Source of the DNA: a virus
Direction: 5' to 3' (one strand)
Virus record (IMG/VR): IMGVR_UViG_3300035670_000905
Coordinates: 1-31,196 of that record
DNA length: 31,196 nucleotides
Below the pieces are notes generated by a model. The model was not told the DNA's origin. It searched no databases and was given only the letters and a program-made list of their open reading frames with translations. The translations under genes and the position numbers were made by a program. Positions 5,494-12,577 of the stretch are shown in pieces (within the stretch, counting starts at the first letter, position 1; every line of letters begins with the position of its first letter).

Positions 5494-5678
5494 TAGAATA
5501 ATGTTAATTGGTTGTTTATAAATATAATTTCTTTTTCAGGAACTAAGAATTGTTTGTATCCAAAATCAACACTATACCAAGTTATAGTTTTTGTTTTGTT
5601 TTGAAAACCTATGTATCTTATAATTCCTTGTATTATCTGACCATCGTAATCTTTATATAATACTGTTTGTCCTATCAT
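5493..5678 (-). CDS. Small hypothetical protein, SH3-barrel-like
   Basis: A 61-residue protein, MIGQTVLYKDYDGQIIQGII through VPEKEIIFINNQLTLF. The pattern of short strands (GQTVLYKD, GIIRYIGF, TITWYSVDF, FLVPEKEII) suggests a small beta barrel such as those that bind nucleic acid or protein. No family recognised. Its ends overlap or abut both neighbours in the operon. Confidence 0.6.
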   Translation of the reverse strand: MIGQTVLYKDYDGQIIQGIIRYIGFQNKTKTITWYSVDFGYKQFLVPEKEIIFINNQLTLF

Positions 5679-5905
5679 GCTAATTGCTTTTTTTCGACTG
5701 GTATGAAGCCTGTTCCTGTGCCTTCATTACCCATCATTTTTAAAAAATCAATTTCTACTTTAGCTGAATGAATAATTGTGTCTGCAAGTTTAGATATTGC
5801 CTTAGCTTTTGCAGTTTCTTTTTCAACATCGGAATCATCATCCATTAGCTTTTCGATTTGTTCGAATAGCAAGTTTCTAAGGTCTTCAATTTTGTTTCGT
5901 GCCAT
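5675..5905 (-). CDS. Small conserved phage protein next to HNH gene
   Basis: A 76-residue protein, MARNKIEDLRNLLFEQIEKL, then helical KAKAISKLADTIIHSAKVEI and a Gly-Thr-Gly C-terminal motif (GTGTGFIP). Proteins with this layout are, from memory, common in phages and often lie beside the same SANT/HNH-type gene as here. The function is not known. It overlaps the HNH gene by 20 bases. Confidence 0.7.
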   Translation of the reverse strand: MARNKIEDLRNLLFEQIEKLMDDDSDVEKETAKAKAISKLADTIIHSAKVEIDFLKMMGNEGTGTGFIPVEKKQLA

Positions 5906-6506
5906 ACTTTTTGATTGTTTTGTTAAGTTTTGATAATGCTTTTATTGTTTTCTTTAAATCTTCAGGATATCTGTGTATTGTGTTTAATCGCATGTTTTCA
6001 GCACAACTAATTAACATTAAATTATTTATGTCATATTTATTCAATGCTGGATTTTTAACTCTTACTACATATCCTTTTGGTACTTTTCCATGTACAGATT
6101 CCCAAATCAATATTTCTTTTCGAATCCATTGTTTGTCGGCTACTTTAACAAGTAAAAATAAATCTTTGCCATCTATTCTTATATCGCCAACTTGCCTTGT
6201 ATTATGCGGTTTGTTACCTTTTTTAAAACTTGTAACATTTGCACCCATGTAACCTTTTACACCTTTGTTCCACGGCTTATTACCTTTTTGAAAACGTGAT
6301 TTATTACCTAAATTTCTAAATCTTTCAGCTTCAATGGCTTTTAGCTTTTTTAGATGTTCATCAGATTTTTTAAGACCTAAAAGATTTGCCTGTGTATAAA
6401 TAGACCTTTCAGTACGTTGTATAATTTCACACAATTCTTTAATGGTTTTATCTGAATAGTGCTGTTTTAATAGTTCGATTTCGTGCGGCTGCCATTTTGT
6501 TTTCAT
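5886..6506 (-). CDS. HNH endonuclease with N-terminal SANT/HTH-like domain
   Basis: A 206-residue protein. Residues 1-48 look like a Myb/SANT-type DNA-binding unit (KWQPHEIELLKQHYSD and RTERSIYTQANLLGLKKS). Residues 70-100 hold repeated FKKGNKP-type basic segments (RFQKGNKPWNKG and SFKKGNKPHN). The HNH core is LIWESVHGKVPKGYVVRVK with candidate His139, followed by INNLMLIS with a conserved Asn. Such phage proteins are free-standing HNH nucleases that may be mobile or may act in packaging or replication. Its start codon overlaps the methyltransferase stop by one base. Confidence 0.8.
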   Translation of the reverse strand: MKTKWQPHEIELLKQHYSDKTIKELCEIIQRTERSIYTQANLLGLKKSDEHLKKLKAIEAERFRNLGNKSRFQKGNKPWNKGVKGYMGANVTSFKKGNKPHNTRQVGDIRIDGKDLFLLVKVADKQWIRKEILIWESVHGKVPKGYVVRVKNPALNKYDINNLMLISCAENMRLNTIHRYPEDLKKTIKALSKLNKTIKKYGTKQN

Positions 6507-7177
6507 TAGAAAAGTTTTTGTTGTGAAATATGGTTGTTAATTCGTTTAATTGCAGCATCGTAGTATTCTTTGTCAAGTTCGCATGCTGTAAGCTCAAAAC
6601 CATAATCGTGGCAGGCAATGGCTATTGAGCCGCTGCCTAAATGTGTATCTAAAATTTTATCGCCTTGTTTGGCGTACTTGTCTAAAAGCCATTTGTAAAG
6701 TTTTGGCGGTTTTTGTGTAGGATGCAATTTTTCACTTTTATTTAAATAAGCTGAATATCTAAACATTTTATTTGCACCTTTAAATGATGTCCAAGCATAT
6801 TCACAATCTGAAAATGATAAACCTTTAGGAACTTCTTTATCCCAAATTATAAAGTTATTGCATATTCCTAAATCAAAATAATTGCCGCCCCAAATAATTT
6901 GATTTTTTGAAACTCTTTTTAATTCTGTAAAATATTTTTTATTTGGTATTTGATTATCCCAATCCTTTGGTTTCCATTTTCTATTTTTAGCTTTTGATGC
7001 TTTTGGTGTGTTACCTATTCCCATATTCATATTAGCTAAATCAATACCATAAGGCGGGTCGACCAAAGCAAGTGAGTAGTAATTGTCAGGAGTTTGGGAT
7101 AATAGATCCATGCAGTCGCAATTAAAAATTTTTATTTTATCCGTAATTGCGCCCCCTATTAAATTTTTATATTTCAT
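6506..7177 (-). CDS. Phage DNA methyltransferase (DPPY type)
   Basis: A 223-residue SAM-dependent DNA methyltransferase of the N4-cytosine/N6-adenine amino type. The catalytic motif is DPPYGID (residues 40-46), HPTQKP is at 152-157 and the SAM-binding motif is DTHLGSGS (177-184). The order (catalytic motif first) fits the beta class. The open frame extends to 7231, but a start at 7177 gives only 11 bases of overlap with the nuclease gene. Its N-terminal region, TDKIKIFNCDCMDLLSQTPDNYYSLAL, is mirrored by the truncated remnant at 7823-7918. It likely protects phage DNA from restriction, or pairs with the adjacent nuclease. Confidence 0.85.
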   Translation of the reverse strand: MKYKNLIGGAITDKIKIFNCDCMDLLSQTPDNYYSLALVDPPYGIDLANMNMGIGNTPKASKAKNRKWKPKDWDNQIPNKKYFTELKRVSKNQIIWGGNYFDLGICNNFIIWDKEVPKGLSFSDCEYAWTSFKGANKMFRYSAYLNKSEKLHPTQKPPKLYKWLLDKYAKQGDKILDTHLGSGSIAIACHDYGFELTACELDKEYYDAAIKRINNHISQQKLF

Positions 7178-7754
7178 AAAACCAATCTTTATTTTTAATA
7201 AAATCGCTAAAATATCTTGCTTTTGTTTCAAATGGAGTCCAACCTTCTTTTAAATATCGATTGACTGTCGCAACCGCTAATCCTGTAATTCTCGATATTT
7301 CACTTTGATTTTTAATTGTTCGACTGAGCTGTTTTACCATTTCAAAATCTTGCATTCCCTTTTCATCATGGTAAGTTCCGCGCAAAGAATCAACTCGAAT
7401 GTTAATAGTTGTTGGCATTTCTTTGTTTGTTAAATACCCTATTTGCATCGTATCTAAGCAAACTAAAGCAAACAAATCAATTTCTTTTTCTTCATATCTT
7501 GTTTTACCGTTCGCGCCTGCTCTTTTTATGCTAAAGATATAAGCTGGAATTGGATTATCTCTTTGTTGTACAAAACGAGCCTTTTCAGTTGTCTTGACCT
7601 GTACTTTTAAAAGCTTTTCTCCTGTATCTAAAAGCACGTCATAAGGCAAACCTTGTTCACTTGGAAAAGCAATAAATCCTTTTAGAATTAAATCAGCACA
7701 AACTAAATATTCTCCAGCTTTGCCAATTTGCAATTGTTTTGAATCTCGTATCAT
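7167..7754 (-). CDS. PD-(D/E)XK endonuclease with HTH, intron-endonuclease type; probable insertion
   Basis: A 195-residue protein. Residues 9-60 match the PD-(D/E)XK fold of group I intron-associated (I-Ssp6803I-type) endonucleases: IGKAGEYLVCADLILKGF with Glu15, LPYDVLL with Asp39, and KVQVKTT with Gln52 and Lys54. Residues about 149-172 (NQSEISRITGLAVATVNRYL) look like a helix-turn-helix. It has its own promoter at 7778-7807, and just upstream lies a truncated methyltransferase start, so it appears to have entered the operon at the methyltransferase gene. It could be a free-standing homing endonuclease or the restriction half of a pair with the methyltransferase. Confidence 0.8.
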   Translation of the reverse strand: MIRDSKQLQIGKAGEYLVCADLILKGFIAFPSEQGLPYDVLLDTGEKLLKVQVKTTEKARFVQQRDNPIPAYIFSIKRAGANGKTRYEEKEIDLFALVCLDTMQIGYLTNKEMPTTINIRVDSLRGTYHDEKGMQDFEMVKQLSRTIKNQSEISRITGLAVATVNRYLKEGWTPFETKARYFSDFIKNKDWFYEI

Positions 7755-7777
7755 TGTAATTATATTTTTATTTAATA

Positions 7778-7807
7778 CAAAGATAGTTAAATAATTTGAT
7801 ATAACAA
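7778..7807 (-). promoter_or_regulatory. Bacteroidota-type promoter for the inserted endonuclease
   Basis: On the minus strand, TTG (7805-7807), a 19-base spacer and TATCTTTG (7778-7785), followed by the endonuclease ATG at 7754. It is an internal promoter within the leftward operon and lies just downstream of the truncated methyltransferase remnant, as expected if the nuclease arrived with its own expression signal. Confidence 0.7.
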
Positions 7808-7822
7808 TAGCTAAATCAATAT

Positions 7823-7918
7823 TTATTTTATTGCCAAATCAAAATAATTATCAGGATACCGTGCCATTAAATCCATGTTATCCTCGTTTGTTATCTGTAT
7901 TTTATCTGTTAGAATCAT
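7823..7918 (-). pseudogene. Truncated DNA methyltransferase N-terminus (remnant)
   Basis: A 31-codon frame from an ATG at 7918 to a TAA at 7823-7825. The ATG overlaps the helicase stop (ATGA), the normal coupling in this operon. It reads TDKIQITNEDNMDLMARYPD, then NYFDLAIK and a stop. This aligns without gaps to residues 12-39 of the intact methyltransferase (TDKIKIFNCDCMDLLSQTPD, then NYYSLALV), and similarity ends exactly before the DPPY catalytic motif. The plain reading is that an original methyltransferase gene followed the helicase and was cut off when the endonuclease gene and the present methyltransferase came in. It could still be translated as a short peptide. Confidence 0.8.
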
Positions 7919-9426
7919 TTTCTTTTAGTTTTATAAAATTCGTTCCATTTTCTAAGCACAGCAGCTTTTAAATCATCGCGGTTTATAGCATTCAATCCGT
8001 GTTTATTGTTTATATATTCAATACTATTAGTTTCTTTCAAAACCCTACTTTCAAATATAAAATAAACCCATTTGTCTTTATGACCGCGCTGTATTTTTAA
8101 CTGCCATAGGTCTTCTAATGTTCGGCTTTTTGCCTGCTCAGTACGTTTAATTTTCAATAGTTCGTCAAGTGTAGTTTCATCTTTTACGGCAACGCCTGCA
8201 ACCTGTTCAATTTCGTTAACCTTTATAGGCTCAACAAAACCGCAATAAGGACATGCAGCGTGTGTTTTTTCATAAGTTCTAAAGCATTCAGTACAGTCTT
8301 TGTATTCATTATCAATCTGTTCATCGGTATCTTTTCGTTTTCGCTTTTGCATTCCTTCCAATGTCCATTCCCTTGTCATTAGTGGGTGTCCATGTAGTTT
8401 CTGATTACCAACGTGGTCAAGTATTAAACATCTATCTTTGCCTGCCATTGGTCTTAATCCGCGCCCTACAATCTGTAAATATAAACTTAGTGACATTGTG
8501 CGGCGTAACATTCCAACAACGCTAACAGCTGGTATATCCGTACCTTCACTTATAAGGTCGCAAAACGTTAATATCTGAATATCGCGATTCGCGAATTGCG
8601 ATATAATTCTTTTAACCTCGTTTTCATCGAATGTTCCATTTATAGAAACAGCCTTAAAACCTGCTTCACAAAATGCCGCTGCGACGTTATCAGCATGTTT
8701 AATATTTACGCAACTATAAATAGCAGGTTCACCCGGTGCCAATCGTTTGTACTCTTCAACAGCATTTCCTGTAATCGCAGGCTTATCCATTTCTTTAAAT
8801 AAATCATCAGCTTTGTATTCGCCGTTTTTATCCTTTTTAATCTTAGTAAAATCCGCCAATGGTCGAAAATTATAATACTCAGGCATTACTAAATTACCCA
8901 TTTGCACTAATTCAGCTGGTAGCGGCCCTAATACCAAATCACTAAATACATCACCTAAGCCCTGTCCATCGCCGCGCCATGGTGTAGCAGTTACACCCAA
9001 AACATAAACAGAATCCGCGTAAAAATCTAAAATGTCTTTCCATGTACCAGCGTTTGAATGATGCGCTTCATCTATAATCAGTAAATCAGGTTGTGGCACT
9101 TCATTAAGCCTATTTTTTAAACTTTGAACGCTGCACACTTGCGCTGGTAAATAATACTGCTTTGTCCTATTTCCTGCAATAAATCCGTGCCTTAATCCGT
9201 ATCTTTTGCAACGCTCCGAAATCTGATTAACAAGGTTTTTTTTATGAACTAAGAAATAAACTCGCTTACCTTTATTAACTGCTTCAATAGCCATGTATAT
9301 AAACGTTTCAGTTTTGCCGCCGCCTGTGGGTAATACAAACAATACTTTTTTATTCCCCTGTCGGTAACTTTCTCTTATACCTTCGACGCTTTGTAATTGA
9401 TATGGCCGCAGCTGTATTGTGTTCAT
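7915..9426 (-). CDS. SF2 DEAD/DEAH-box helicase with zinc ribbon
   Basis: A 503-residue superfamily 2 helicase of the type related to UvrB and type I restriction motors. N-terminal LRPYQ (Q-motif-like), Walker A PTGGGKT (33-39), DEAH (119-122), TATPWR (146-151), a SEGTDIP motif V region (about 293-299) and QIVGRGLRP motif VI (318-326) are all visible. After the helicase core, four cysteines (378, 381, 392, 395 in CTEC and CPYC) form a likely zinc ribbon. Probably unwinds or remodels DNA during phage replication or recombination. It overlaps the HTH gene by 77 bases; the start is kept because the LRPYQ motif lies immediately after it. Confidence 0.88.
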   Translation of the reverse strand: MNTIQLRPYQLQSVEGIRESYRQGNKKVLFVLPTGGGKTETFIYMAIEAVNKGKRVYFLVHKKNLVNQISERCKRYGLRHGFIAGNRTKQYYLPAQVCSVQSLKNRLNEVPQPDLLIIDEAHHSNAGTWKDILDFYADSVYVLGVTATPWRGDGQGLGDVFSDLVLGPLPAELVQMGNLVMPEYYNFRPLADFTKIKKDKNGEYKADDLFKEMDKPAITGNAVEEYKRLAPGEPAIYSCVNIKHADNVAAAFCEAGFKAVSINGTFDENEVKRIISQFANRDIQILTFCDLISEGTDIPAVSVVGMLRRTMSLSLYLQIVGRGLRPMAGKDRCLILDHVGNQKLHGHPLMTREWTLEGMQKRKRKDTDEQIDNEYKDCTECFRTYEKTHAACPYCGFVEPIKVNEIEQVAGVAVKDETTLDELLKIKRTEQAKSRTLEDLWQLKIQRGHKDKWVYFIFESRVLKETNSIEYINNKHGLNAINRDDLKAAVLRKWNEFYKTKRK

Positions 9427-9598
9427 TTTCTAATTCGTTTAAGGCATCTAAAAGTTTAAAGTACATTGTTAATGTTTGTGGGTCGCCGTTTTTCCAATAT
9501 TCAAACGTTTGCCTACCTACTTCTGCCCGCCTGCAAAGTTCGCTTAGATTTATACCCAAATTATCACAGCGAATGTTAAATTTTTCAAATGTGTTCAT
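9350..9598 (-). CDS. Cro/C1-like HTH regulator, first gene of leftward operon
   Basis: An 82-residue protein with one helix-turn-helix at about residues 14-38 (LGINLSELCRRAEVGRQTFEYWKNGD) and a basic C-terminal tail (ITKRRRYKRK). Size and layout fit a Cro- or C1-type DNA-binding regulator without a protease domain. It is the first leftward gene from the divergent control region at 9600-9678, which carries two copies of TTTGTGCTA beside the facing promoters, so it probably regulates itself and the rightward recombination genes. The unusual 77-base overlap with the helicase keeps the two genes translationally linked. Confidence 0.75.
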   Translation of the reverse strand: MNTFEKFNIRCDNLGINLSELCRRAEVGRQTFEYWKNGDPQTLTMYFKLLDALNELENEHNTAAAISITKRRRYKRKLPTGE

Positions 9599-10640: not shown

Positions 10641-11657
10641 ATGCTTACTCATGATTTATTTGGTGTTGAAATTATTGAAAATGAAAAAGGTTTTTTATCT
10701 GTTTCAGGTTTATCGCTTTCATATGACTTGATGAAAAAAAAATATGGATGGAATAATAGAAAAATTGAAGCTATTATGCAAACAGATAATTTTAAAAAAA
10801 TAATATTTGATATTATAAAATTTAATGATACAAATATTGAATTTGGTAATTTTGTAATTTCAGCACATGAATTAGGAATAGTAAAATTATTAAAAAAATT
10901 AGGTTATTGGAAAACAACAGGTGCAAGAAATACTAAATTAACAATGTGTGATAAAAAAATATGGAAATGTATTTATATTCATTTATTCCAAGAATTTACA
11001 GATTTAAACATGCCAAATTGGATAAGAGAAATTGAAATAGATACATATAAGTATAATATTAAAAGATTTGAAAGCAAAGAACAATACTTTATAGATAATT
11101 TTTTAAAAGAGATAAATTTTTTTTTAGATTCAGTTCCAATTAGACAATACAAAATTGATAATTATAGATATGATTTATTTATAGAAATATTTGGAAAACG
11201 TATTTTAATAGAATATAATGAAAAGCAACATTCAACAAATTCACAAATTGAAATAGATTATAAAAAAAGTCTTTTAGCTAATGAATGTGAATACTATTTA
11301 ATATATGTTCCTATAAATAAAGAGTATTGTATTAAAGAATCAATATTTGATATAATAAAAGGGCATGAAACATTAGATGAAAATTTAGAATTACTAAATT
11401 GTAGATTTTTTGAAATGAATGAAAAATTACAAGGCATTTTAACAAATTCTTTTCCACATATAAATTATAAAGTTTTTGTCGAAGCCATTAACAAAAAAGT
11501 TTTTGGAACTCACGTTGCAGGCATGAGAAATTTGGCAACTGCTAATGAACTTAAGAAAATAACTAAGTTAGAACAATTTATTACTAATAGTATTGAAATC
11601 GGTATGATTACTAACGATAATCAGATTATGAATGCAATACAAAAAATCAATATTTAA
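10641..11657 (+). CDS. KilA-N-like and DUF559/Vsr-like nuclease protein, probable mobile insertion
   Basis: A 338-residue protein. Residues about 15-120 resemble a KilA-N domain (KGFLSVSGL, then YWKTTGARNTKL and IWKCIYIHLFQEF). Residues about 165-225 look like a PD-(D/E)XK/Vsr-type nuclease: YRYDLFIEIF with Asp178, ILIEYNEKQHST with Glu191 and His197, DYKKSLLANE, and YYLIYVP. The last 60 residues (from about 278) are in visibly less AT-rich DNA than the rest, suggesting a mosaic gene. It has its own promoter and splits the exonuclease from the annealing protein. Combined DNA-binding and nuclease domains fit a free-standing homing-type endonuclease. No target was identified. Confidence 0.7.
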   Translation: MLTHDLFGVEIIENEKGFLSVSGLSLSYDLMKKKYGWNNRKIEAIMQTDNFKKIIFDIIKFNDTNIEFGNFVISAHELGIVKLLKKLGYWKTTGARNTKLTMCDKKIWKCIYIHLFQEFTDLNMPNWIREIEIDTYKYNIKRFESKEQYFIDNFLKEINFFLDSVPIRQYKIDNYRYDLFIEIFGKRILIEYNEKQHSTNSQIEIDYKKSLLANECEYYLIYVPINKEYCIKESIFDIIKGHETLDENLELLNCRFFEMNEKLQGILTNSFPHINYKVFVEAINKKVFGTHVAGMRNLATANELKKITKLEQFITNSIEIGMITNDNQIMNAIQKINI

Positions 11658-12316: not shown

Positions 12317-12577
12317 ATGTTTGAAGTAAAAGTTAAAAGAAAAAGCGGTGAAATCGTTAAATTTATGGTTGACGATGCTGATTACTTAAGTGTTGTAGAT
12401 TACAAATGGTATTTTAGAGAAAACAGATTTATAAACTATCAAGGTAAATTATTACATCACTTACTTTTTAATCATAAAAATTTTAACAGAAAGTATAGTT
12501 TAGGCTTTAAAGATGGTAATATTTTCAATTATCAAAGGGATAATATAGTTTTTTATCATGGTAAATTTGAAAATTAA
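12317..12577 (+). CDS. Degenerate HNH/AP2-like homing-endonuclease-related protein
   Basis: An 86-residue protein. The layout follows small phage HNH proteins: VDDADYLSVVDYKWYF matches the DDEDYELLSKYKWY-type N-terminus, LLHHLLF the MHRLI segment, and KDGNIFNYQRDNIVF the NGNTLDNRRSNLR segment. The His that normally precedes the NGN motif is replaced (GFKDGN), so nuclease activity is doubtful. It lies between two predicted RNA units and may be a decayed mobile nuclease or a re-used DNA-binding protein. Another ATG five bases upstream is out of frame. Confidence 0.6.
   Translation: MFEVKVKRKSGEIVKFMVDDADYLSVVDYKWYFRENRFINYQGKLLHHLLFNHKNFNRKYSLGFKDGNIFNYQRDNIVFYHGKFEN

Follow-up and report, generated by a model that had tools for sequence, protein, structure and literature searches.

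The window analyzed here, a stretch of 31,196 nucleotides of viral DNA (IMG/VR record IMGVR_UViG_3300035670_000905), very probably contains a homing element that combines a nuclease gene with a substitute 5′ end for the gene that it invades. The inserted element (Table 1) consists of a promoter-like site, a PD-(D/E)XK nuclease gene, and a foreign 39-codon methyltransferase start, which is fused in frame to the resident methyltransferase body at the GAC of its DPPY motif (motif IV). The earlier note on this DNA had proposed that a nuclease invaded a methyltransferase gene at its most conserved site, and this proposal is supported by nuclease-free alleles in the same helicase context. The invasion is not a one-off event, since it is found again in other phages, in at least 17 distinct loci altogether (comparison loci carry the prefix L).

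Structure of the inserted element

On the minus strand, the helicase stop codon overlaps the start of a 31-codon frame (7823-7918) in an ATGA. As the earlier note had described, this frame can be aligned gaplessly with the beginning of the intact methyltransferase (16/29 residues identical); the likeness ends one codon before DPPY. Judged from the sequence comparisons presented below, the frame is the displaced original start of the methyltransferase; the open frame of the remnant continues to a stop at 7823. The nuclease lies between the remnant and the intact methyltransferase, also as described, and its stop overlaps the methyltransferase start (ATG at 7177) by 11 bases. The methyltransferase frame (7177-6506, minus strand, 223 aa) matches Pfam N6_N4_Mtase (PF01555) and overlaps the downstream HNH nuclease gene (6506-5886). 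TAnnTTTG is the Bacteroidota-type promoter consensus, and boxes comparable to that of the window are present in L059, L061, and L091.

The comparison with L059, another element-bearing locus, delimits the insertion. A blastn search yielded one 784-column match with 83% identity (window 7822-7042), and the flanks are unrelated, apart from the methyltransferase pieces on both sides of the element. The element is homologous between the two loci, and its flanks are not.

Table 1. Features of the methyltransferase locus in the window
Feature	Position	Strand	Remarks
Helicase	7915-9426	minus	Left flank of the element; also present in nuclease-free relatives; 91-97% aa identity to L001-L028
Methyltransferase remnant (original first 30 codons of the resident gene)	7829-7918	minus	Start codon overlaps the helicase stop
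Whole inserted element, about 770 bp	7061-7828	minus	From blastn to L059; breakpoint at GAC of DPPY
Relic of another target end (..GATTTAGCTATTGTT)	7803-7828	minus	Between remnant and nuclease
TAnnTTTG box TATCTTTG	7778-7785	minus	Candidate Bacteroidota-type -7 promoter element of the nuclease; putative, no activity data
Nuclease, PD-(D/E)XK, 195 aa, I-Ssp6803I-like	7167-7754	minus	Own start, stop, and reading frame
Replacement methyltransferase N-terminus borne by the element, 39 codons, target re-spelled	7061-7177	minus	25/30 aa to L059, 14/30 to L020
Resident methyltransferase body, DPPY (motif IV) to stop	6506-7060	minus	N6_N4_Mtase family; 488/554 nt and 167/184 aa to nuclease-free L020/L026
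HNH nuclease gene	5886-6506	minus	Right flank, outside the element; also present in nuclease-free relatives (helicase-methyltransferase-HNH in L027, L028, L054)

Nuclease-free alleles and the origin of the two methyltransferase parts

The earlier note had suggested a search for the helicase-methyltransferase junction without the nuclease, and we found it when comparing 58 viral contigs that share the helicase. In L027, L028, and L054, the helicase, an intact methyltransferase, and the HNH gene follow in direct succession, with the same helicase-methyltransferase overlap as in the window and no nuclease; in L002 and L014, the HNH gene comes immediately after the helicase. The remnant matches the N-terminus of the L027 methyltransferase, encoded at the same place, at 24/29 residues and 75/86 nucleotides, and that of L054 at 24/29 residues. 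A 31-codon frame conserved as a separate gene, which would have refuted the proposed invasion, was not found among these helicase relatives. Each remnant match there begins a full methyltransferase, so the short frame is not conserved as an independent gene.

Where does the intact methyltransferase of the window come from? From DPPY onward, its protein is 90-91% identical to the methyltransferases of the nuclease-free L019, L020, L026, and L044, whereas the part before DPPY matches them at only 14/30 residues (47%). The remnant matches their N-termini at 23/29 (79%). The comparison with the element-bearing L059 is reversed, as the start is similar (25/30) and the body is only 65% identical. 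At the DNA level, the switch point is the G of GAC in GACCCGCCTTATGG: the window and L020 share 47/90 nucleotides upstream of GAC and 86/90 downstream (Fisher p 1e-7), while the window and L059 share 73/90 upstream and 15/15 over the motif, after which the likeness is lost (Fisher p 0.06). Since both comparisons switch at GAC, the nuclease brought along no more than the first 39 codons, and the rest of the gene is the resident body. The suggestion that the nuclease brought or rebuilt a complete methyltransferase is therefore correct for the new first ~39 codons, but not for the body from DPPY onward.

The same discordance is found independently in L087 and its nuclease-free relatives L147-L152. 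The bodies of the latter are 76-90% identical to that of L087, and their N-termini share 85-100% identity with the L087 remnant but only 55-60% with the L087 methyltransferase start. This comparison is an independent replicate. Resident methyltransferase N-termini are generally more conserved than bodies. We dropped Mantel tests of distance matrices (20 elements) as evidence for the split, since all of the parts correlate and the N-terminus is not separated from the body. The argument therefore relies on the breakpoints and on the discordant comparisons.

Several relatives (L019, L020, L026, L044, and L027) have further methyltransferase genes upstream of the helicase, and it is to these that the downstream methyltransferase body of the window is closest. 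Methyltransferase bodies seem to shuffle between the two places around the helicase. The helicase itself varies in L037 (2310-4064) and L044 (4435-6190), where some 74 codons are inserted in frame near residue 427 and the C-terminal 76 residues belong to a diverged type (62% versus 93% elsewhere).

The nuclease

The nuclease passes the Pfam family PDDEXK_5 (PF11645) with 41.2 bits, as compared to a gathering cut-off of 26.1, and Glu15, Asp39, Gln52, and Lys54 are invariant among 15 relatives. No NCBIfam model matched it above threshold, and PHROGs assign it to two families whose function is unknown. A search by sequence among solved structures yielded only a weak match to I-Ssp6803I (PDB 2OST; E 0.06), and a fold comparison was therefore used instead. 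For the predicted model (pLDDT 87.5), 2OST is the top match in Foldseek (E 1e-6) and in VIA (Z 15.4, rmsd 2.7, 134 residues aligned), where the next unrelated rows have Z of about 12 or less. As modeled, the nuclease has the PD-(D/E)XK fold of I-Ssp6803I with its catalytic residues; double-strand cleavage of a long specific site is only presumed for it.

The two enzymes share the Pfam family, the fold, and conserved PD...QxK-type active-site residues. I-Ssp6803I is encoded in a group I intron, whereas the phage element has no intron. In addition, the phage family has two subtypes: one of about 195 residues with an added helix-turn-helix region (about residues 129-174), and one of about 155 residues without it. 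The nuclease gene lies outside any self-splicing intron or intein: no Rfam match was found across the region at E up to 1, so no intron was found, and the gene has its own frame between stop codons. Element-bearing and element-free alleles occur at the same site, as the free L027, L028, and L054 and the free relatives of L087 (L147-L152) demonstrate. The dN/dS ratio is 0.06-0.16 against L059, L061, and L091 (overall range 0.03-0.16), and by this measure the nuclease is under purifying selection.

Recurrence across phage loci

We collected the nuclease family from viral contigs, genome contigs, and annotated collections, and ran an HMM of 138 resident methyltransferase N-termini over the six frames of 2.28 Mb. 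The window remnant was detected with an iE of 1e-11. Significant remnants were detected at 16 other distinct loci (iE 4e-12 to 1.4e-5), all beside the same nuclease family, giving 17 distinct phage loci with a remnant (iE < 2e-5) adjoining this nuclease. Nearly all of these remnants end within a few bases of motif IV, and a methyltransferase start ending in DLAIV, or near it, recurs directly upstream of the nuclease. Even in L066, where the nuclease is inverted, it still lies between the remnant and the methyltransferase. The other HMM matches at iE < 2e-5 are intact methyltransferases with variant motif IV. Only two comparable remnants lie elsewhere than beside the PD-(D/E)XK nuclease: that of L223 adjoins an HNH nuclease, and the weaker one of L368 has no nuclease. 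On these statistics, the remnant matches are not due to chance.

About half of the distinct nuclease loci have no clear remnant or only decayed ones; none was seen in L071, L076, L085, L086, and others. A single scan of genome contigs yielded three nuclease loci, among which L091 is a remnant-nuclease locus and L092 has a decayed remnant. L104-L111 have another arrangement, with a PDDEXK_5 nuclease downstream of the 3′ end of a ParB-type methyltransferase gene; in L108, the cut in the methyltransferase falls at motif IV. Most of the contigs come from metagenomes, but assembly artefacts are unlikely because the pattern repeats and one of its bearers, KO-TP1, is an isolated phage.

In a nearest-neighbor test, 9 of the 17 element N-termini were nearest to another element (permutation mean 1.7), indicating that the element starts form lineages, and about half were nearest to a resident. 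All of the remnants (16/16) were nearest to residents, which is weak evidence, as residents dominate the pool.

In L368 (1850-1930), a short methyltransferase-start remnant directly precedes another methyltransferase gene with no nuclease between them, possibly by nuclease loss or direct recombination.

Other targets and a second nuclease family

The target is not restricted to DPPY. L136 and L137 have MT-A70-type methyltransferases with DPPW, and their short remnants end at this motif. The nuclease gene of KO-TP1, an isolated Klebsiella phage, starts with ATGACCGGAAAATA, which is identical to the first 14 nucleotides of the methyltransferase gene in the nuclease-free phage HK639; the KO-TP1 methyltransferase itself starts differently ahead of DPPW. 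E. coli genomes contained nothing closely matching the KO-TP1 junction.

Moreover, L223/L383 and L384 carry an HNH nuclease of 163 aa that has no relationship to the PD-(D/E)XK family; its insertion follows ATGGC(T/A)CGTTATCC. In these loci (L223:1200-2564, L383, and L384), a remnant (..LMARYP) lies upstream and a full methyltransferase with another start lies downstream, and the insertion point is identical in the two different phage contexts (L223/L383 and L384). As the HNH nuclease repeats the pattern, the strategy is not tied to one nuclease family.

The re-spelled junction

Ahead of GAC, 153 distinct resident sequences follow the pattern GATTTGGC(T/A)AT(T/A)GTT, and the element-borne sequences score far lower on this resident junction profile (p 5e-9). 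The core GCNATHGTN stands directly before GAC in 166 of 220 resident methyltransferases but in 0 of 17 element methyltransferases (p 3e-10; 5e-10 with duplicates removed). The accompanying change at the protein level is small, for example from DLAIV to SLALV, DLACV, or DLAIC. We infer, without cleavage data, that the re-spelled junction would block cleavage and give element alleles immunity.

Probable traces of movement, decay, and cure

A second partial copy of the target end, AAATAAATATTGATTTAGCTATTGTT (7828-7803), lies between the remnant and the nuclease in the window. A similar stretch, AAAATAAATATGATTTTGCTATTGTT, precedes the element in L091 (nuclease 78% identical), and in L059 the element starts directly after GATTTGGCTATTGTT, the target end. 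The window relic is probably a piece of an earlier remnant or site of residence that was carried along, although this history is inferred.

The methyltransferase is lost in L065, L091, and L092, and only its 3′ end is left in L070. In L238 and L240, a nuclease-tail relic stands in exact register before an element-type methyltransferase start, with no nuclease (iE 0.005; the position adds much weight), and L238 (1140-1291) and L240 are likely to be cured alleles. An element-type methyltransferase start without a nuclease is also present in L276 (1884-2001).

Proposed homing cycle

Cleavage: We propose that the I-Ssp6803I-like nuclease cuts the nuclease-free methyltransferase gene at or near the boundary between GCNATHGTN and GACCCNCC, in the codons entering the catalytic motif IV.

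Repair: An element-bearing phage present in that cell would then serve as the template for repair of the break, with two homology arms: on the left the old 5′ end, which is kept as the remnant, and on the right the body from DPPY onward. The architecture of the repaired gene, its breakpoints, and the origin of both methyltransferase parts can be read directly: the stranded old start is followed by the nuclease and by the new N-terminal segment in frame with the resident body, and a full-length methyltransferase is still encoded. The function of this hybrid enzyme is inferred.

Resistance and cure: The different spelling of the junction in the new segment is an observation, as is the selection on the nuclease; the resistance of donor and converted alleles to cleavage is presumed from the spelling. 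Later loss of the nuclease would leave a cured, still re-spelled allele, and L238 is a likely case.

On balance, we are inclined to regard this natural cleave-and-rescue homing with a re-spelled 5′ end, reached at least twice (PD-(D/E)XK and HNH) in phage methyltransferases, as an undescribed class of prokaryotic mobile element, a view that we hold with some reserve.

Alternative explanations

Could the same history have unfolded without homing? Ordinary phage recombination at the conserved motif could have put together a nuclease-linked methyltransferase start, which selection on the methyltransferase or nuclease function then fixed, without any double-strand break. Motif IV is the most conserved stretch and thus a natural recombination point, and the L368 remnant lacks any nuclease. 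However, the remnants are tied to nucleases, the junction is spelled systematically differently in the element alleles, and the nuclease is under strong purifying selection; we therefore consider this explanation unlikely. A tandem duplication of the methyltransferase with truncation of the first copy, beside which the nuclease is a coincidental or later neighbor, could be suspected from L027 and L028, which carry two methyltransferase genes, one on each side of the helicase. It is very improbable, because the truncation point is equal within a few bases in most of the 17 unrelated loci, the nuclease lies between the remnant and the methyltransferase each time, the breakpoint of the intact methyltransferase falls at the same codons, and the unrelated HNH nuclease shows the same pattern, while a remnant without any nuclease was seen only once (L368).

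The earlier note also considered a captured restriction-modification-like pair, in which the methyltransferase would protect the site of the nuclease and the pair would have settled beside an old methyltransferase fragment. Both protein classes are known from restriction-modification systems, and the two genes adjoin and overlap in many loci, but they are not inherited as a matched pair. Nucleases that are 97% identical over residues 1-131 (window and L059) accompany bodies of only 65% identity, and those of L076 and L087 (89%) accompany bodies of 59%. The bodies derive from nuclease-free residents and exchange independently of the nuclease, the nuclease occurs without a methyltransferase in L065, L091, and L092, and the best fold match is a homing enzyme rather than a restriction enzyme. 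The pair is thus very improbable and lacks support. Finally, the membership of a group I intron endonuclease in the nuclease family raises the idea that RNA or protein splicing (by a group I intron or an intein) joins the remnant, as the true 5′ exon, to the other parts. This is hardly conceivable: Rfam gave no match at E up to 1 in 5600-9500, stops follow the remnant, the nuclease has its own start and stop, and the methyltransferase has a complete alternative N-terminus, which splicing would duplicate.

Relation to known mobile elements

For the homing element with a substitute 5′ end, the nearest described mechanism is that of the fungal mitochondrial mobile ORFs (mORFs), known in atp6, atp9, cox2, and nad3 from Glomus sp. 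and Allomyces macrogynus (PMC3630166). A fungal mORF consists of an endonuclease and a foreign C-terminus, and the native C-terminus is left displaced (PMC3630166). Both systems thus combine an endonuclease gene with a foreign substitute for one gene end, leave the native end as a displaced remnant, and create an in-frame hybrid gene, and the fungal substitute likewise differs more in DNA than in protein (PMC3630166). The fungal elements, however, replace the C-terminus, use LAGLIDADG or GIY-YIG enzymes, and reside in mitochondria (PMC3630166), whereas the phage element replaces the N-terminus, uses PD-(D/E)XK (and in one case HNH) enzymes, resides in phage hosts, and targets the methyltransferase motif IV. 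The phage element is the mirror image of a fungal mORF; it resembles that group in its working but does not belong to it.

The T4-like free-standing homing endonucleases (seg, mob) share the phage setting, the nuclease gene outside any intron or intein, and the presence/absence alleles (PMC2988022). They cut hundreds to thousands of bases from their own genes (PMC2988022) and bring no replacement for part of the cut gene, unlike the present element, whose insertion interrupts the coding sequence itself where the cut is presumed to occur. The ShiLan insertion in an actinobacteriophage methylase is an HNH frame that lies internally in the methylase frame and is translated as part of it, without a rebuilt N-terminus or a displaced remnant (PMC11855218). 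We found no phage element with a rebuilt N-terminus in the literature, although the search covered only open-licence papers and does not prove that none exists.

By carrying a second, differently spelled version of the end that it severs, a nuclease gene would be able to inhabit the most conserved stretch of another gene with neither an intron nor an intein, as a natural counterpart of engineered gene drives with a recoded rescue copy. The stages of the homing cycle (empty, occupied, methyltransferase lost, and nuclease lost) are visible in the sequences, and KO-TP1, with the nuclease-free partner sequence of HK639, offers a ready assay system. We predict that a short orphan frame beside a phage nuclease is not a gene but a homology arm or a scar.

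Further nuclease-like genes in the window

The HNH gene on the right flank, directly after the helicase in L002 and L014 and missing in L001 and L003, may be another mobile nuclease. A 338-aa frame (10641-11657) has a nuclease-like stretch (LFIEIFGKRILIEYNEKQH) and a weak likeness to the phage regulator family phrog_2657, and an 86-aa frame (12317-12577) is HNH-like; both may be further selfish nucleases.
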